Positions 19,872 through 31,686 of a DNA stretch of 41,876 bases are shown in pieces. The translations under genes and the position numbers were made by a program. Positions within the stretch are counted from its first letter, which is position 1. Each line of letters begins with the position of its first letter. The DNA comes from Tychonema sp. LEGE 07203. Lineage in GTDB: Bacteria; Cyanobacteriota; Cyanobacteriia; Cyanobacteriales; Microcoleaceae. The notes under the pieces were generated by a model. It saw nothing but the letters and a program-made list of their open reading frames with translations, did no database searches and was not told the origin of the DNA. The stretch lies in assembly GCF_015207285.1 (NCBI RefSeq), contig NZ_JADEXD010000044.1, forward strand, positions 1-41,876, written 5' to 3'.

Positions 19872-20258
19872 TTAATTAGCGATATTGATTGCCTGGGAAC
19901 CAGTTAAAGAGTTAGTTGCAGTTGTAGAGCGTGCATTGTGCACCTTACTTTGACAAAATTCTTCAAATAGCTGAAAAAAAATATCGAGCGCATCTCTCTC
20001 ATCTTGAGAAAAGAATAGAATTATATTCGCCCATGACTGAGATGAGTCGATATTAAATTTTTTCTGTATCCAATCTTGAAATCCATCTAGAATATTTTCT
20101 TCTTGTAGAGGTAAGCCAAGCTGGTACTGTGCCACATTATATCCAGACAAAAAAGCCTGAAGACAACTAATTGACGGTTTGCCCAAATACACTGAAGGTT
20201 TATTCTTGATTTTTTTGAGAATATCGGAGAGATTATCCATATAGACTACCCGTTGCAT
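19872..20258 (-). CDS. Probable immunity partner of the papain-fold toxin
   Basis: A 128-residue protein (or 122 residues from the ATG at MDNLSDILKK), mostly helical. KPSVYLGKPSISCLQAFLSGY is a distinctive short block, followed by QDWIQKKFNIDSSQSW and a DE-rich segment. I have no named family for it. It follows the toxin gene by 26 bp on the same strand, as immunity genes follow toxin genes. Its last 20 or so residues (KVHNARSTTATNSL onwards) are coded by a GTAAGGTGCACAATGCAC-type palindrome and look like an added tail. Role in immunity is inference from position. Confidence 0.55.
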   Translation of the reverse strand: MQRVVYMDNLSDILKKIKNKPSVYLGKPSISCLQAFLSGYNVAQYQLGLPLQEENILDGFQDWIQKKFNIDSSQSWANIILFFSQDERDALDIFFQLFEEFCQSKVHNARSTTATNSLTGSQAINIAN

Positions 20259-20284: not shown

Positions 20285-20665
20285 TTAAAACTCTGTTTGT
20301 GTCACTACAAACTCTCCATTAAAATCTTCTACAAGAAGTCCGCCAAAACTCTTGAGCCAATCATCTTTAGGGATTCCATTAGGATATAGGTTATCGAACA
20401 CTGTTTCAAGTGTTCCTAATTCTGTGGACATCTCCACAAGCACACCTTGATGAAAACCATTTGTGGAGATTTGGCGATCGCTCCCCACTGGATTGGTAAT
20501 AATTGAAAATGGGAGCCTGTCGGGGACTGTGCTAATTCTTATTATCTTACCCTTAATTTCCTGTTTGGTCAAGTAATTTTGTATGGCTTGAGAACAGGAA
20601 ACACATTGAAAATTTCTATATTTTTTAGCAATCTGCTTGAGTTCATCAAGTTGCTCCTTATTCAT
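20285..20665 (-). CDS. Stand-alone papain-fold toxin domain protein (Tox-PL-2-like)
   Basis: A 126-residue protein with features of papain-fold toxins: FQCVSCSQAIQNYL at residues 19-32 gives the candidate catalytic cysteine (Cys21 or Cys24), ISTNGFHQGVLVEM gives the His at 72, and ETVFDNLYPNGIPKDDWLK gives the Asp/Asn at 91-92. It would act as a cysteine protease or related hydrolase. The domain usually sits at the C-terminus of large secreted polymorphic toxins; here it is alone and without a signal peptide or trafficking domain. The likely immunity gene lies directly downstream. Whether it is active alone is unknown. Confidence 0.65.
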   Translation of the reverse strand: MNKEQLDELKQIAKKYRNFQCVSCSQAIQNYLTKQEIKGKIIRISTVPDRLPFSIITNPVGSDRQISTNGFHQGVLVEMSTELGTLETVFDNLYPNGIPKDDWLKSFGGLLVEDFNGEFVVTQTEF

Positions 20666-20767: not shown

Positions 20768-21823
20768 TTAACTCCAAATTTTCCTAATCCAATTGTACAC
20801 CGCAGCAGATAAAGCCCGTAACTTATTTACAAAAATTTGCCAAATTGAAACTTTTCTTACCTCAAATAAATCTTCTATTTCCACGGGCAGCGGCGGCATT
20901 CCGACTACTTCATAGAGCGGATATTCGCCGCTTTTTCCCGGAATTTCAACTAATACGCATTGATTGACGATCGCCAATTCCTTGACTTCCTGATAAGTCT
21001 CCTCGGAAATCAACAAACTCGTTCCTACTTGCTTGTTCGCAGCCTCGATCCTGCTGGCAAAATTCACCGCATCTCCGATCGCCGTAACTGTCTGACTGTT
21101 CGACGCACCCAAATTCCCCACCACCGCCAAACCGCAGTGAATCCCAATACCAATCCGCAATCGGTGACGGTATAAAGTCTCAAAATAGGGATTGAGTTTA
21201 TCCAATTCCTCCAGCATCTCCACCCCAGCCCTCACTGCTTGTTCCGCCGCCTTTTCGGGATTTTCTAACCCAAACAGCGCCATGAAACCGTCTCCCATAT
21301 AATTATTAATCATCCCACCATTCTTATTGATTACAAAACCCATTTTCTGGAAATAGCGATTTAAAATATAAATTACGTCGTAGGGTAGCAGCGATTCTGC
21401 AAACGCAGTAAACCCTCGAATATCGGCAAACAAAATTGCAATTTTTTTCTCGTGCCCCACAGGTGCAGAAATCAACTTTCCCACCATTTGATCGTTAAAT
21501 GCTTCCAAGTCTTCAGAATCGATCGCCAATCTCCGCAAAATCACTTTCCCGCCAGCAATCTGTGTCTGACAAGCTAGCCTAATTTCCGGTTCTAAACGCA
21601 ATTTTTTTGCAAGTTCCTCTTCCGGCGAAGTACGCGGAGAGCAAAACTCCAAACCTTCGACAATCAAGACGCGGCAAGTCGAACACCGGGCGCTACCGCC
21701 GCAGATGTGGGTGTGGGGAATGCCGGCACTGAGGGAAGCTTCGAGAATTATATCGTCGTCGTCTATCTCGATCGTGCGATCGTCCGGCAGATAGTGAATG
21801 TGCGGCATCTGTGGCATCTCCAA
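20768..21823 (-). CDS. Ferredoxin-domain/class III nucleotide cyclase fusion
   Basis: A 351-residue protein. Residues 1-100 form a [2Fe-2S] ferredoxin-type domain with Cys41, Cys47, Cys50 (CGGSARCSTC) and Cys85 (ACQ), so the usual four ligands are present. Residues 123-310 form a class III adenylate/guanylate cyclase domain: metal Asp134 in LFADIRGFTAFAE, Asp178 in NNYMGDG, and Asn254/Arg258 in AIGDAVNFASRIE for the transition state. Which nucleotide is used cannot be settled by eye. A redox-responsive cyclase is a reasonable inference. An alternative start is MPHIHYL. The C-terminus ends in a basic helix (LRALSAAVYNWIRKIWS). Confidence 0.85.
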   Translation of the reverse strand: MEMPQMPHIHYLPDDRTIEIDDDDIILEASLSAGIPHTHICGGSARCSTCRVLIVEGLEFCSPRTSPEEELAKKLRLEPEIRLACQTQIAGGKVILRRLAIDSEDLEAFNDQMVGKLISAPVGHEKKIAILFADIRGFTAFAESLLPYDVIYILNRYFQKMGFVINKNGGMINNYMGDGFMALFGLENPEKAAEQAVRAGVEMLEELDKLNPYFETLYRHRLRIGIGIHCGLAVVGNLGASNSQTVTAIGDAVNFASRIEAANKQVGTSLLISEETYQEVKELAIVNQCVLVEIPGKSGEYPLYEVVGMPPLPVEIEDLFEVRKVSIWQIFVNKLRALSAAVYNWIRKIWS

Positions 21824-22296: not shown

Positions 22297-23430
22297 ATGA
22301 GTTCATCAACAGTTCTACAAAGCATCGAAAAACACATCCCTATCGTGGGAGATGTACACACCAAAAGCCCGATCGCCTACCGAGCAACTCGCTTCGCAGT
22401 CAGTGCAGTTAACGCGGTGCAAATGGCAGTAGCAGAGTCTTATATCAACGGTTTAGAAGTACCTGATTCTGTATTGCGAGGTCTTTTTGATACCTGTATG
22501 CCCGTCTTTTTTAAGTATTTTCCCTCCCTCCTCGCACCCTACGAATGGGTACTCACAGAAACAGAGCATACAGCCGAAGGCCCGCGAGATTTAATGAAAA
22601 TTCAGTACGACTTGCCTCAAGCCATGCTGAATCCGATGTTAGGTGACGGCCAACTCATTTATCCTAAATACAGCATGGGGTTGTGGGAAAAAGGAGCCGC
22701 CAATCTCGAACAAGCACAAATGCAGATGATTGATGATGTCATTGAAAAGCTACAGATACAAGATGGCGACAATATTTTAGACTTTGGCTGCGGTTGGGGC
22801 TGCGTTCCCAATTACATTCTTTCCAAATTCCCCAATGTCCAGTTTACCGGCATTAACTTGAGCCACCACCAATGCGAGTATATGCGGCACAAGATGCAAG
22901 ACCCCGAAAGCTACCTTAGTTCCGGTCGATTTACCCTATATGAAGGCGATTTGAACGACACCAACTTCGCGACCAAATTTGACACAATTCTCTCCATCGG
23001 AGTTTTTGAGCATATAGGCAATTTAAGGAAAGCTTTCCAAAAACTGGCATCTTTCCTGAAGGATAACGGCAAAGTTTTCATTCACATCATCACAGTTCGC
23101 ACCCCCAACAATATATCCAGCGTTTTCACCCACAAATACATTTTTCCCCACGGCCGTTACTGGAAATACGATGCCGTGCCCAGCCACAACCAAGACCTCA
23201 AAACCATAAAAAGCTGGTATCTCAACGGATACAATTACTCCACAACCTTTGCTAACTGGCTGAAAAACTTTGACGATTCTCAGGCAACAGTCAAAGATTT
23301 AGACTACGGCATCGACTATGCCAAATTCCGCCGCATCTGGCGGTTTTACTTGATGTGGTTTGTGGCTAATTTCGCGAGTTGCGACGGCGAATATAACGGC
23401 AACGGTCAATATTTAATGGTTCGTGCCTAA
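22297..23430 (+). CDS. CFA-synthase-like SAM-dependent methyltransferase
   Basis: A 377-residue protein of the cyclopropane-fatty-acyl-phospholipid synthase/mycolic acid cyclopropane synthase superfamily. QYDLPQAMLNPML (about 103-115) and YPKYSMGLWEKG with LEQAQ (about 122-141) are the family's substrate-loop features. The SAM loop is ILDFGCGWGCVPNYIL at about 160-175, and the family motif SIGVFEHIGN comes later at about 231-240. The long N-terminal region (1-100) is not typical of CFA synthases and fits the coclaurine N-methyltransferase-like branch. It could therefore cyclopropanate, methylate an acyl chain or methylate an amine. It is about 590 bp from lipoxygenase on the same strand. Confidence 0.8.
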   Translation: MSSSTVLQSIEKHIPIVGDVHTKSPIAYRATRFAVSAVNAVQMAVAESYINGLEVPDSVLRGLFDTCMPVFFKYFPSLLAPYEWVLTETEHTAEGPRDLMKIQYDLPQAMLNPMLGDGQLIYPKYSMGLWEKGAANLEQAQMQMIDDVIEKLQIQDGDNILDFGCGWGCVPNYILSKFPNVQFTGINLSHHQCEYMRHKMQDPESYLSSGRFTLYEGDLNDTNFATKFDTILSIGVFEHIGNLRKAFQKLASFLKDNGKVFIHIITVRTPNNISSVFTHKYIFPHGRYWKYDAVPSHNQDLKTIKSWYLNGYNYSTTFANWLKNFDDSQATVKDLDYGIDYAKFRRIWRFYLMWFVANFASCDGEYNGNGQYLMVRA

Positions 23431-23467
23431 TCGCTCATCTGCAGACAAAGCTCAAATAAACTGAACA

Positions 23468-23506
23468 TCCAGAACCTAGACTTTTTTAAGAAGTCTGGGT
23501 TCTGGA
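23468..23506 (+). terminator. 16-bp hairpin after the methyltransferase gene
   Basis: TCCAGAACCTAGACTT and AAGTCTGGGTTCTGGA pair over 16 bp with one G-T pair. It begins 38 bp after the stop. The loop is T-rich rather than the following sequence, so it could be a terminator or one of the dispersed palindromes. Confidence 0.55.
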
Positions 23507-23729
23507 TTGCCAGCTACTTATCAGGAGACTGAAACCGCCCTGTGTGGATTTAGGGCGATCGAGAAGTGTTGCTCTTTTTTGAGGAATTTGTGATAGTTGA
23601 AAAAAGTCCGGAATAGAATTTTTGATCGGCGAACAATCAATATATCAAGTTTTATTCTAAGGACGCAAGAGTTCTTCAACTCCATCCTTTATCTGTAGCG
23701 ATCGTATCTGAGATTTGATCTCGTTTCTG

Positions 23730-23978
23730 GTTGCCTCGGAATAATAAAATCGAGTCAACAGTCATTAGTTATTAGTCATTAGTCATTAGTCAGTAGTTGT
23801 TGGAAATTGGTTATTAGTTATTGGTTATTGGTTACTTGCTACGAATTCCCAATCCCTCCGCAACGCTAGAGTCCAATTCTCAATTCCCAATAACAGTCAA
23901 CAGTCAACAGTCAACAGTCAACAGTCAACAGTCAACAATCAACAGTCATGTTTGAGTGCAACCAAAATTGATATGACT
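23730..23978. repeat. Composite repeat element, left copy (flanks lipoxygenase-desaturase)
   Basis: A 249-bp element: a 32-bp left block (GAATAATAAAATCGAGTCAA inside it), then a changing core of ATTAGTC and GTCAACA heptamers, and a 33-bp right block (TCATGTTTGAGTGCAACC, then AATTGATAT). The right copy at 27204 keeps both blocks with two and three mismatches. The right block reaches into the 5' end of the longest lipoxygenase frame. Confidence 0.8.
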
Positions 23979-24017
23979 ACTAAAAAAAGGGTTATTTTTA
24001 GACAGCAGGCAAACAAT

Positions 24018-25721
24018 ATGAAACCTTTCCTTCCTCAAGACGACCCGAACCAAGAACAGCGCAAAGATTCCTTAAATCGCCAGCAAAAAGCTTATCAGTT
24101 TGACTATGAGAGTTTATCACCTTTGGCATTATTGAAAAATGTGCCACCAGTCGAGAACTTTTCGAGCAAGTATCTTGCAGAGCGGATCTTAGCAACATCG
24201 GAACTTCCAGCAAATATGCTGGCAGCCGATTCGAGAACTTTTCTCGATCCTCTCGACGAACTCCAAGACTATGAAGACTTTTTTACTCGGCTGCCGCTAC
24301 CTGCAGTTGCCAAAATTTACCAAACCGATCGCTCTTTTGCAGAACAGCGCCTGTCTGGAGCAAATCCGATGGTACTTCGCCTCTTAGATGCGAGCGATCC
24401 TCGGGCACAAACACTGACGGATCTTTCTAATTTGCACCCATTATTCGATCGGCGCCAAGAGTTGCAGGACAATAACATTTACATTGCCGATTATACGGGT
24501 ACTGACGAGCACTATCGCGCGCCTGCTCTCGTTGGAGGCGGAACCTATGAAAAAGGCAGAAAATACTTGCCGAAACCGCGGGCTTTTTTCGCTTGGCGGT
24601 GGACGGGAGTCGGCGATCGCGGTGAAATGACACCTATTGCTATCCAACTAGATCCGAACCCCGGCAGCCATGTCTACACTCCATTAGATCCTCCTGTCGA
24701 TTGGCTGTTTGCGAAACTCTGCGTGCAAGTGGCAGATGCCAATCACCACGAAATGAGCTCGCATTTAGGTCGAACTCATTTGGTTATGGAGCCAATTGCG
24801 ATCGTCACCGCCCGACAGTTGGCCCAAAATCACCCGCTGAGCCTGCTGCTGAAACCGCACTTTCGCTTTATGTTGACCAACAACGATCTGGCACGTTCTC
24901 GATTGATCAATCCCGGCGGGCCCGTCGATGAATTGCTAGGCGGCACCTTGGCTGAGTCAATGGAATTGGCTAGAGAGGCGTGCAGTACGTGGAGTCTCGA
25001 TGAATTTGCCTTGCCCGCCGAACTGAAAAATCGGGGAATGGATGATCCCAATCAACTGCCTCACTATCCTTACCGAGATGATGGATTGTTGCTTTGGGAT
25101 GCGATCGAAACCTTTGTATCGGGCTATCTTAAATTCTTTTACCCGACGGAGGGGGCGATCGCCCAAGATGTGGAACTGCAAACCTGGGCCCAAGAATTAA
25201 CCTCTCAGACAGGCGGTAAAGTCAAAGGAATGCCAGCCAACATCAACACAGTTGAACAATTAATTGCAATTGTCACAACTATAATTTTTACCTGTGGCCC
25301 GCAGCATTCAGCAGTCAATTTTCCCCAGTATGAATACATGAGTTTTGCAGCTAATATGCCCTTGGCCGCCTACCGGGACATTCCTAGGATTACCGCTTCG
25401 GGCAATCTAGAAGTAATTACAGAAAATGACATTTTACGGTTGCTTCCTCCGTACAAACGAGCGGCCAATCAACTGCAAATTCTGTTTATTTTGTCAGCTT
25501 ATCGATATGACCGTTTGGGTTATTACGATAAATCTTTCCGCGAACTTTACCGGATGAGCTTCGATGAAGTTTTTGCGGGAACCCCGATCCAATTTTTAGC
25601 GAGACAGTTCCAGCAAAATTTGAATATGGCCGAACAAAGGATTGATGCCAACAATCAAAAACGGGTAATCCCTTATTTTGCTGTCAAGCCTTCTTTGGTA
25701 CTCAATAGCATCAGTATGTAA
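24018..25721 (+). CDS. Lipoxygenase (mini-LOX without PLAT domain)
   Basis: A 567-residue enzyme from the ATG at MKPFLPQDDPNQ, which would dioxygenate polyunsaturated fatty acids to hydroperoxides. The frame continues upstream to 23952, but that part is inside a repeat, so the later ATG is chosen. Counting from 23952, iron ligands are His266 and His271 (HEMSSH), His452 and Asn456 (HSAVNF) and the C-terminal carboxylate. The final residue is Met589, ending NSISM where other lipoxygenases end in Ile. FAKLCVQVADANHHE and PLSLLLKPHFRFMLTN are family blocks; NPGGPVDELLG lies at the region that sets stereochemistry. No PLAT domain is present. Regio- and stereospecificity cannot be read by eye. It converges on a desaturase gene. 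Confidence 0.9.
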   Translation: MKPFLPQDDPNQEQRKDSLNRQQKAYQFDYESLSPLALLKNVPPVENFSSKYLAERILATSELPANMLAADSRTFLDPLDELQDYEDFFTRLPLPAVAKIYQTDRSFAEQRLSGANPMVLRLLDASDPRAQTLTDLSNLHPLFDRRQELQDNNIYIADYTGTDEHYRAPALVGGGTYEKGRKYLPKPRAFFAWRWTGVGDRGEMTPIAIQLDPNPGSHVYTPLDPPVDWLFAKLCVQVADANHHEMSSHLGRTHLVMEPIAIVTARQLAQNHPLSLLLKPHFRFMLTNNDLARSRLINPGGPVDELLGGTLAESMELAREACSTWSLDEFALPAELKNRGMDDPNQLPHYPYRDDGLLLWDAIETFVSGYLKFFYPTEGAIAQDVELQTWAQELTSQTGGKVKGMPANINTVEQLIAIVTTIIFTCGPQHSAVNFPQYEYMSFAANMPLAAYRDIPRITASGNLEVITENDILRLLPPYKRAANQLQILFILSAYRYDRLGYYDKSFRELYRMSFDEVFAGTPIQFLARQFQQNLNMAEQRIDANNQKRVIPYFAVKPSLVLNSISM

Positions 25722-25734
25722 AAGTGTATTTTTT

Positions 25735-25757
25735 GGGTTGGGCGAGACGCCCAACCC
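25735..25757. terminator. 10-bp hairpin after lipoxygenase gene
   Basis: GGGTTGGGCG, AGA, CGCCCAACCC: a perfect 10-bp stem, 13 bp after the stop. Strong, but no T run. It lies between two convergent genes. Confidence 0.65.
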
Positions 25758-25788
25758 CTACTCCCCAAAATACAATTCATTGTTTGTG

Positions 25789-25810
25789 GAACAGGCTAGA
25801 AAGCCTGTTC
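25789..25810 (-). terminator. 9-bp hairpin after the desaturase gene
   Basis: GAACAGGCT, AGAA, AGCCTGTTC: a perfect 9-bp stem, 38 bp past the desaturase stop when read on the minus strand. No T run. With the hairpin at 25735 it separates the convergent transcripts. Confidence 0.6.
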
Positions 25811-25847
25811 TTAAACAGGGTGCAAGATGTGGCTCCAATGCGAATTC

Positions 25848-26987
25848 TCAGCTTTTATAGTCTTCCACAATCGAGCAATTCACGGCCATTGTACCCGCAG
25901 AATCAGTGAAGGTGACTTCATCTTGATAATGCCGGGGTGTTTGCATCAGCAACCGCCAAGCTTCTCCAGCATCTATTAAATTCATTCGTCCGGGATAGTG
26001 AATTTGCAACAACTCTTGCACCATCGGATAATAGTCTGAGTTGATGCTGGGGAAAATGTGATGTTCTGTGTGGTAAGAAAAGTTTAAGTGCAGGACATCA
26101 AATATTTTAGGAACCCGCAGCGAAGCACTATTTATCAGCGGGTCGTTAATCTCGGTCATCCGACAGCCCATGTGATTGGTAAAGATGTAGAACATGGCGC
26201 CTGCATGACCGATCGCGATCGGCAAAATGTAGGCAAGAGCTACTTTAATCGGGTTAAACTCTAGATAGAACAAGATACTCAGGTGAATTCCGACAATTCC
26301 CAGACATTCAAAGGCGATCGTTCTTCTATCTTTCGGACTAACTGTAAAGGCAGCCGGTACGTAATCGACAGATTTATCGTTGAATAACAGTATCGAGGTG
26401 AGATTGCGGAAATTGTGTACAAACCAGGAACCGGCCATCCCGACAATTAACCACAGCGGATTGACTTCCACCGACGGTACAAATAGATTTTGAATCCATT
26501 TTCCCCAGGTGTCGGGCTGCTGGGACAGGTAATTGCGATCGGGATCTGCAGCAGAATTGGTGTTGTTGTGGTGTACGAGGTTGTGCAGATTTTTCCACTG
26601 AGTAGGCGGCATGAACAGCATACTTAGGCCAAAAAAGGCGATCGGATAAGTCAGGCGAGACTTTTTCTGAACGCTGCCGTGCATCAAGTCGTGGGAGCTA
26701 AACAGCAAAACTGTGATACTATTGCCCATGACGACGGCTAAAGGTAAGTAAAGCCATAAAAAATAGACAGACCAGCGATCGAGATTAGCAGCAATTCCCC
26801 ATCCTAACAATAAAATCGCGATATTTATCAGCAGTATCCCTAACTTGCTTGAATTTGGTTCAAAGGCATCTGATGGCAGCAGCGGGCGCAATTTTTTAAC
26901 ATATACCGAGTGGTGAATTAGCGTTTCTTCGCTTAATGTCGGTGTTTCAGTCTTGTCTAGAGTATTGATTTTTTTTTCTGATTTCAT
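25848..26987 (-). CDS. Fatty acid desaturase (membrane di-iron)
   Basis: A 379-residue membrane desaturase. Three histidine boxes are intact: HDLMH at 99-103, HNLVHH at 135-140 and HTEHH at 306-310. Hydrophobic helices surround them (LLINIAILLLGWGIAANL, LWLYLPLAVVMGNSITVLLF, and another at about 228-264). Such enzymes insert a double bond using electrons from ferredoxin. The position cannot be assigned by eye; it does not look like a plain DesA, DesB or DesC. The ATG start is preceded by AATCA-type sequence. It is convergent with lipoxygenase, 127 bp apart, and could supply its substrate. Confidence 0.85.
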   Translation of the reverse strand: MKSEKKINTLDKTETPTLSEETLIHHSVYVKKLRPLLPSDAFEPNSSKLGILLINIAILLLGWGIAANLDRWSVYFLWLYLPLAVVMGNSITVLLFSSHDLMHGSVQKKSRLTYPIAFFGLSMLFMPPTQWKNLHNLVHHNNTNSAADPDRNYLSQQPDTWGKWIQNLFVPSVEVNPLWLIVGMAGSWFVHNFRNLTSILLFNDKSVDYVPAAFTVSPKDRRTIAFECLGIVGIHLSILFYLEFNPIKVALAYILPIAIGHAGAMFYIFTNHMGCRMTEINDPLINSASLRVPKIFDVLHLNFSYHTEHHIFPSINSDYYPMVQELLQIHYPGRMNLIDAGEAWRLLMQTPRHYQDEVTFTDSAGTMAVNCSIVEDYKS

Positions 26988-27203
26988 GTTTGGGATAAGA
27001 GTATTTCGATGTCACTCAATAACTTTCTACAGTTAATTGTATCTGAGATATTGCAGGATTGTTAGCAACAGGCAAGTTTGTCATGTAAAAATTTAATGTT
27101 CTTGTGAAATAAGCCGGAGATCGCGTTGCCAAACAGCTTATAGAAAATAAGGGTATATATAAGTTATCGGATTTTGAACCAATAACCAATAATATCGTTG
27201 ACC

Positions 27204-27310
27204 GTTGCATCAGAATAATAAAATCGAGTCAACAGTTAACAGTCAACAGTTAACAGTCAACAGTTAACAGTTAACAATCATGTTTGAGTGCAACCGGAAT
27301 TGATATAACT
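27204..27310. repeat. Composite repeat element, right copy
   Basis: A 107-bp version of the element at 23730 in the same orientation, with the same left and right blocks around GTCAACA/GTTAACA heptamers. It ends 16 bp before the stop codon of the ProA-like gene. Confidence 0.8.
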
Positions 27311-30795: not shown

Positions 30796-31686
30796 TTAAC
30801 AGTATGAGGATACATCTTCCTTGCAATCATCTGCTAAATAGCAGAGGGCTCGAAAGCGCATCCCCACCAACTGTTCGTACAGCGGGTTAATCTTGCACAT
30901 CGCCGGAATGTGGACGATTTTGTGTCCGAACAGCACGATATCTCGCTCAAAGGGACACTGGGGCGGAATCATTTTGCAGACAAAATGTGCCACTCTGGGA
31001 TCGTTAACTTCCCAGGCGTCCAGCCAGTCTTTGACGGGTTGCAGGACGTTTTTGTGGTGAGGTTTGCGTAGGGGGGATGAAAGGGGTGTTCCGGCGGAGA
31101 TGGCGTTGGCATCAAAGGCTATTTGGCTGTTGGGCCCTTTGGGTTCGGACTGGCTGTCTTCGATGGTGTGTCGCAGAGATTCGATCGCCTCGACGTTGTG
31201 ACCCAATGCTGTGCAAAACTTGTACAGTACCTCGTCTTCGCTCAGCGAGTAGGTACCGTCTGCTAAGGCTACCATGACTGCTGTTCTCAAAAAGTTCTCG
31301 CCCTTGGCGGTGCCTTTCCCCAGCACAGCAGCTAGTTCTTCTGCGGCAATGGGTTCAAAATCTGTCTCAAAAGATACTGGATGTAATTCATCTTGAGTTA
31401 GATTCGCAATCATTTTTTGCTCGTTTTCGTCAAAGTTGCCGTCGGCCCAAGCAATTGTCAACAATCCGCGCAGCCAAGCGGTGATTTCTTCATCTGTGCA
31501 GGAAGATTTTGCGTTACTCATCAGCATTTCGAGTTGGATATACCAGTTAATTTCTTGATTTGGAGCGGGAGAAATATTCCCCTCTAAATAATTTTTACTG
31601 CTTTTTTGCTCGATCGTCGATCGAGTTGTTGAAGGTTTGTGCCTGAAGATTGCTCCAAACGCTTGTAGTGGACGTGTTAAAAGCAT
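30796..31686 (-). CDS. TerB-like/Mo-dependent nitrogenase C-terminal-domain fusion protein
   Basis: A 296-residue protein. Residues about 60-170 look like a TerB-type helical domain (ITAWLRGLLTIAWADGNFDE, then VMVALADGTYSLSEDEVLYK), which has paired acidic metal-binding motifs (ADGNFDENEQ and ADGTYSLSED). A Ser/Pro linker leads to a Mo-nitro_C domain at about 215-295: LQPVKDWLDAWEVNDPRVAH, CKMIPPQCPFERDI and INPLYEQLVGMRFRALCYLA, with several Cys. This domain also occurs outside nif clusters in cyanobacteria; no nif genes are nearby. Several Met codons near the start make the N-terminus uncertain. Confidence 0.8.
   Translation of the reverse strand: MLLTRPLQAFGAIFRHKPSTTRSTIEQKSSKNYLEGNISPAPNQEINWYIQLEMLMSNAKSSCTDEEITAWLRGLLTIAWADGNFDENEQKMIANLTQDELHPVSFETDFEPIAAEELAAVLGKGTAKGENFLRTAVMVALADGTYSLSEDEVLYKFCTALGHNVEAIESLRHTIEDSQSEPKGPNSQIAFDANAISAGTPLSSPLRKPHHKNVLQPVKDWLDAWEVNDPRVAHFVCKMIPPQCPFERDIVLFGHKIVHIPAMCKINPLYEQLVGMRFRALCYLADDCKEDVSSYC

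Follow-up and report, generated by a model that had tools for sequence, protein, structure and literature searches.

A linked methyltransferase and desaturase in cyanobacteria as candidate enzymes of mid-chain acyl modification

The closest described relatives, in family or in chemistry, of a three-gene neighbourhood in the cyanobacterium Tychonema sp. LEGE 07203 are CMAS-type methyltransferases of acyl chains, the AAR-ADO alkane pathway and a small cyanobacterial lipoxygenase. The neighbourhood lies in a 41,876-nucleotide stretch (contig NZ_JADEXD010000044.1 of assembly GCF_015207285.1; the window hereafter), and it comprises a CMAS-type methyltransferase dependent on S-adenosylmethionine (SAM) (MT), a mini-lipoxygenase (LOX) and a membrane fatty-acid desaturase (DES). 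Of the described enzymes, E. coli CFA synthase (CMAS, PF02353) carries a bicarbonate ion whose ligands, in the passages available, are Glu239, His266 and Tyr317 (PMC11387697). Passages on two other CMAS-type enzymes describe methylation of a mono-unsaturated acyl chain without ring closure: the CFA homolog UfaM from Rhodobacter sphaeroides converts cis-vaccenate to 11-methyl-12-trans-18:1 (PMC10876521), and BfaB from Mycobacterium, together with the reductase BfaA, converts oleate to 10-methylstearate (PMC5660069). In cyanobacteria, according to the accessible parts of Coates 2014 (PMC3903477), branched alkanes were found in 7 of 32 strains, only in strains with the ADO pathway; their methyl group stems from SAM, vaccenic acid is the likely precursor and the methyltransferase is called unidentified. 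The known products of the AAR-ADO pathway are straight chains, and the literature passages found assign it no methylation step.

Here, we report that MT and DES are linked in many genera and that in some relatives one or both of them lie within the AAR-ADO cassette. We give about an even chance to the interpretation that the two enzymes form a module for mid-chain acyl modification which in much of its range supplies ADO and AAR, LOX being a local addition.

Linkage of methyltransferase and desaturase

All three open reading frames (ORFs) are open, and Pfam places each of them well above cut-off in the family that a preliminary description of this DNA had named (Table 1). Family motifs, which it had called intact, are readable in all three: the iron ligands of LOX, the His boxes of DES (HDLMH, HNLVHH and HTEHH, read from the sequence) and the bicarbonate-ligand positions of MT. 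LOX follows MT in the same orientation after 587 bp (counted from the LOX ATG at 24018), LOX and DES are convergent with 126 bp between them, and the gene order of the contig is common to named Microcoleus and Tychonema records. DES differs from the Bacillus-type Delta(10) desaturase DesB (NF052549 of NCBIfam), scoring 162.9 bits against an equivalog cut-off of 500; among solved structures it has no credible match up to E 10, the best (E 0.0043) being an unrelated enzyme.

An order-level set of 195 genomes was searched with LOX, MT and DES alike and counted from the match tables, MT orthologs being accepted at an identity of at least 49% or as fragments. MT occurs in 40 of these genomes, DES in 63 and both in 28 (p 3.8e-8; here and below, co-occurrence is assessed by Fisher tests in which phylogeny is ignored). 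In 15 of the 28 genomes with both, no more than 2.5 kb separates the two: four pairs, all in the genus of the window genome, are tail-to-tail (G000, the window genome of 6.6 Mb in 351 contigs, and G033, G092 and G109; G numbers denote genomes and L numbers loci), and eleven in other families are head-to-head, two of them with fragments (G065, G002). A scan of named genomes with MT, which picks up close relatives only, yielded 55 loci with the same division; DES is within 2.6 kb of MT in 26 of them, 16 tail-to-tail in Microcoleus-type loci and 10 head-to-head elsewhere, and no desaturase was found nearby in 25, in some since the contig ends. The existence of two different arrangements argues for selection on the linkage, beyond shared descent; the MT-DES pair is old and has been repeatedly rebuilt. 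Adjacency in other genomes had been suggested as a check on the neighbourhood: it proved to be conserved for MT with DES and not for all three genes together, and the conserved linkage makes the gene arrangement more than chance.

Co-occurrence extends beyond neighbouring genes. Outside a deep clade described below, 28 of 31 genomes with MT also have DES (p 2.5e-13). Family f33 (192 genomes including G154; Nostocaceae-like, as judged by matching Anabaena and Dolichospermum contigs) holds MT in 47 and DES in 46 genomes, with 30 having both, 17 MT only and 16 DES only (p 4.1e-12); MT and DES are intact neighbours in two of these genomes (G213, G302), and in two others (G354, G326) MT has a DES fragment at its side. 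A mirror-tree comparison confined to MT and DES (31 pairs) gave r 0.82 with a Mantel p of 0.001, which mostly reflects shared descent.

The desaturase next to MT can be exchanged. Another, shorter desaturase of about 300 residues (Pfam FA_desaturase), encoded on the same strand, adjoins MT in L086, L090, L096 and L097 at distances of 7-548 bp and in L113 at 194 bp. In L193, a gene of this shorter type is flanked by a DES fragment and an MT fragment, all inside the stretch from ADO to AAR. Two kinds of desaturase therefore accompany MT. Directly upstream of MT, L115 and L117 encode a DAGAT/PlsC-type acyltransferase, and in L116 and L118 this place is taken by an ORF of the same size, equally far from MT.

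The AAR-ADO cassette (searched with TIGR04058 for AAR and TIGR04059 for ADO) has MT and/or DES inside or beside it in 7 of the 195 genomes: DES is within 2 kb of ADO, AAR is on the same contig within 6 kb, and MT or an MT fragment is included in five. With the strand after each gene, the order is AAR-, MT-, DES+, ADO- in G048 and G026; ADO+, DES (fragment)-, other desaturase+, MT (fragment)+, AAR+ in G002; ADO+, DES-, AAR+ in G021; AAR-, ADO-, DES- in G014; and MT-, DES+, ADO+, AAR+ in G147 and G065, the MT of G065 being a fragment. The seven genomes fall in families f2, f14, f21 and f26, and NCBIfam confirms ADO and AAR in L145, L191 and L193 and in part in L140, L192, L194 (carried by G147) and L195. 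By chance, such closeness of DES and ADO would be expected in roughly 0.10 genomes, given 61 genomes with both genes; because the genomes are related, independent linkage events number fewer than seven. In a second setting, DES follows fabD, fabH and plsX (L147; L148 and L162 are alike by ORF size and order alone). The position of DES beside ADO-AAR or in the plsX-fabH-fabD row points to fatty-acid or alkane synthesis rather than oxylipins, and the earlier suggestion that DES is there to supply LOX finds no support in these settings. In the window genome itself, contig C231 carries both ADO and AAR, apart from MT and DES. The presence of MT and DES inside the cassette of some relatives makes them good candidates for branched-alkane enzymes.

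Catalytic residues of the methyltransferase

By sequence, E. coli CFA synthase ranks first for MT (E 6.6e-24), with pavine N-methyltransferase at 1.8e-22; over the aligned part, MT shares 27% of residues with CFA synthases and 22% with coclaurine N-methyltransferase. MT shares with E. coli CFA synthase the Pfam family, the Rossmann fold and the bicarbonate ligands, in that Glu238, His263 and Tyr314 of the window protein correspond to Glu239, His266 and Tyr317 in an alignment with structure 6bqc. It is unlike that enzyme in scoring 153.1 bits against the NCBIfam CFA synthase equivalog, below the cut-off of 400, and, across MT sequences, at two residue positions. Met127 of the window protein stands where E. 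coli CFA synthase has a cysteine, which we take to be Cys139, and this place is Met in 70 of 78 MT sequences (a set in which some entries are the same contig taken twice). The second position is that of Glu239, which is Cys in 63 of the 78 sequences; Cys also predominates (119 of 121) among the best 120 database proteins taken together with the window. The His ligand is kept in 78 of 78 and the Tyr in 76 of 78. Judged from these sequence relationships, the partner desaturase and the cassette position, MT is a probable acyl-chain C-methyltransferase.

The window protein belongs to the minority with Glu, as do those of G033, G109, G001 and L074, all of which have close relatives with Cys. A deep group, comprising nine genomes with neither ADO nor DES, also has Glu. 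At the level of the codon (238 of MT, window positions 23008-23010), GAG is present in the window, L054, L074 and L087, and TGT in close relatives. As a change from TGT to GAG needs three base changes, it is likely that the Glu allele moved by recombination between MT alleles. Binned DNA identity appears to dip near the Glu site in comparison with several Cys-type copies. Broken copies of MT exist in both types: Glu-type in G033 (two stops) and G109 (split), Cys-type in G081. With the window genome kept outside the table, ADO accompanies Cys-type MT in 21 genomes and is missing from 3, and it accompanies Glu-type MT in 3 and is missing from 9 (p 3.7e-4).

Proposed pathway and competing explanations

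From the families, linkage, desaturase replacement, cassette position and residue patterns observed above, we infer a substrate, a double-bond position and a product as follows. DES, or the other desaturase in some lineages, would place a cis double bond in a C16-C18 chain, and MT, like UfaM, BfaB and CFA synthase, would add the methyl group of SAM at this bond. AAR would then reduce the acyl chain to the aldehyde and ADO would remove the end carbon, giving a methyl-branched alkane; with cis-vaccenate as the start, this would be 8- or 7-methylheptadecane (a C18 chain methylated at C11 or C12, minus C1). Tentatively, and with somewhat more doubt than confidence, we propose that MT and DES are the missing enzymes of 7- and 8-methylheptadecane synthesis, the MT with Cys in place of Glu methylating without ring closure before AAR and ADO act. 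The open-licence literature searched, as far as its passages go, names no methyltransferase gene for methylheptadecane, and as far as that literature shows the proposal is not in print. Branched alkanes are reportedly present in Microcoleus vaginatus, a finding said to go back to Dembitsky in 2001. Of the strains tested for methylheptadecane, PCC 7120, PCC 7414, PCC 6912 and Gloeobacter PCC 7421 are not among the 55 named MT loci, which is no proof of absence.

The analogy to UfaM and BfaB is one of described chemistry, not of sequence, and there are differences. The partner of MT is a desaturase, and a BfaA-type FAD-dependent reductase is not next to MT in the window, where its neighbours are a ferredoxin-cyclase fusion and LOX; a reductase for the leftover double bond is missing from the window. 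In the deep relatives L124 (5448-6425) and L129 (5276-6271), an FAD-binding ORF 16-17 bp downstream of the Glu-type MT matches FAD_binding_3 above cut-off and, as a weak geranylgeranyl-reductase-like match, GGR_cat below cut-off; by these matches it is a candidate reductase partner of MT.

Several points weigh against the alkane proposal. In family f33, ADO is present in 191 of 192 genomes, and among the matches listed none was seen, by eye, within 10 kb of MT or DES. As Glu is kept at the bicarbonate-ligand position, the window copy may make a cyclopropane rather than a methyl branch. The predicted structure of MT is closest to plant coclaurine-type N-methyltransferases, and a different candidate methylase is encoded within the alkane cassette of some genomes; both of these are taken up below.

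Of the alternatives, the one that fares best, which we nevertheless consider unlikely, is that MT and DES modify membrane or storage lipids, making them methyl-branched or cyclopropane-containing, with no specific role in alkanes, and that their linkage to ADO-AAR reflects a general grouping of fatty-acid genes. The plsX-fabH-fabD row of L147, the acyltransferase upstream of MT in L115 and L117 (both of family f31), the deep-clade MT genomes that lack ADO and the accA and FabG-type genes that also occur near ADO-AAR are all consistent with this idea; the placement of MT and DES between AAR and ADO in G048 and G026, and of DES there in G021, is tighter than a general grouping would be.

It is improbable, in our estimate, that the branch methyl of the alkanes comes not from MT but from a B12-binding radical-SAM protein (domains DUF4070, Radical_SAM and B12-binding). 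This protein is encoded between ADO and AAR in G147, G039, G062 and G113, beside ADO in G163 and as a fragment in G065; the copies in L194 (10872-12455), L214, L215 and L216 are 77-81% identical, and a distant homolog (about 34%) is next to MT in G108, G074 and G032 (L198, L199 and L200). On such a route the partner desaturase that follows MT would be needless, and the cassettes of G048 and G026 have MT and DES and no radical-SAM gene. The radical-SAM and MT routes could both exist, for mono- and di-methyl alkanes, and the products of the radical-SAM protein may be the same branched alkanes or different ones.

We regard it as very unlikely that MT is a coclaurine-type N-methyltransferase of amines or small molecules, with neighbours that are coincidental or serve another product: the nearest predicted fold is indeed of that type, yet the ranking of CFA synthase and the identities given above favour the other side, and the neighbours of MT in several lineages are acyl-chain enzymes.

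The lipoxygenase and neighbouring genes

LOX lacks the N-terminal C2-like domain, and its best PDB match, over the full length, is Cyanothece LOX2 (5med, E 4.9e-126), a mini-lipoxygenase that, in the passages available, makes the bis-allylic 11R-hydroperoxide (PMC5437038). The longest ORF starts with TTG at 23952; since the alignment to 5med begins at residue 24 of that ORF, the start is probably the ATG at 24018, which gives 567 codons. The iron ligands are kept, comprising the two His of HxxxxH, a third His and an Asn, and the carboxylate of the chain end can bind iron. The chain ends in Met in the window, as it does in several relatives; L092 has Val there, and Ile is the residue in most relatives examined. 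Of the clamp residues, the equivalents of Leu258, Ala300, Leu304 and Leu506 are kept and Ile stands at 502; unlike in Cyanothece LOX2, Asn occupies the place of Ile296, as it does in all 12 Microcoleus-type sequences examined and in most of the next relatives.

Among the 195 genomes, only G000, G033, G166 and G179, all of the window's genus, have LOX beside DES, whether MT is there too or not; in G001 it is on a contig with neither MT nor DES, and 7 of the 55 named MT loci carry it. The close LOX type, present in 21 genomes, co-occurs with MT in 11 (p 5.7e-4) and with DES in 15 (p 1.2e-4), so that a looser link of LOX to the pair is possible. A loss of LOX that left remnants was considered and rejected for ten MT-DES gaps without LOX, in which tblastn gave a best E of 4.4 and blastn nothing at E 0.01; without a remnant, gain and clean loss are indistinguishable. 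LOX probably joined the site inside Microcoleus and acts on its own on polyunsaturated chains. That DES polyunsaturates chains for LOX and MT modifies the same lipids, or that all three make furan fatty acids with LOX as the oxygenating enzyme, is the least probable explanation, for although MT and DES flank LOX in the window, in G033 and in six named loci of the Microcoleus type, and LOX co-occurs with them above chance, its adjacency is confined to one genus among the 195 genomes, many MT-DES loci of that genus lack it and the ten gaps hold no trace of it. A three-gene oxylipin module, as first envisaged, is therefore rejected as a general unit on account of this one-genus distribution among the genomes examined; a functional link through lipid chains holds up for MT and DES, whose linkage spans many genera, and fails for LOX as a member of the unit.

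LOX and DES are bracketed by two copies of a dispersed repeat, the right copy being 89% and 74% identical to the left (two repeat pairs), and these could have helped rearrangement. The window genome has 26 occurrences of the 23-base core of this repeat, against 0 for the control, and the (AACAGTC)n runs resemble known cyanobacterial heptamer repeats.

On the other side of MT, the gene for the ferredoxin-cyclase fusion is found beside MT in many Microcoleus-type loci. Further genes of the window include one for a papain fold toxin 2 protein and the ORF after it, a possible pair of the toxin-antitoxin type, and a gene fusing TerB to a nitrogenase-associated domain.

Table 1. Features of the window, with positions counted from its first nucleotide.
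Feature	Position	Strand	Description
MT	22297..23430	+	CMAS-type SAM-dependent methyltransferase, 377 aa; Pfam CMAS 129.9 bits (cut-off 27)
LOX	24018..25721	+	Mini-lipoxygenase lacking an N-terminal C2-like domain; Pfam Lipoxygenase 224.7 bits (cut-off 23.6)
DES	25848..26987	-	Membrane fatty-acid desaturase, 379 aa, partner of MT; Pfam FA_desaturase 93.1 bits (cut-off 29.7)
Repeat, left copy	23718..23978		Dispersed repeat containing runs of the heptamer AACAGTC; lies upstream of LOX and overlaps the 5' end of the longest LOX ORF
Repeat, right copy	27192..27310		Same repeat in direct orientation, between DES and a proA-like gene
Ferredoxin-cyclase fusion	20768..21823	-	2Fe-2S ferredoxin and adenylate/guanylate cyclase domain
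Tox-PL-2 protein	20285..20665	-	Papain fold toxin 2 (PF15643)
ORF after Tox-PL-2 gene	19872..20258	-	128 aa; no Pfam match
TerB fusion	30796..31686	-	TerB domain fused to Mo-dependent nitrogenase C-terminus domain

Methylheptadecanes serve as cyanobacterial biomarkers, and a named gene pair with genomic support makes the methylation step of their synthesis testable. If MT and DES do carry out this step, alkane producers would become predictable from genomes, and the pair would be a tool for work on branched-alkane biofuels. The exchange of Glu for Cys is a natural experiment on the choice that CMAS enzymes make between ring closure and methyl branching, and, if the proposal is true, the Cys/Glu switches inside Microcoleus would switch the product between methyl-branched and cyclopropane chains.

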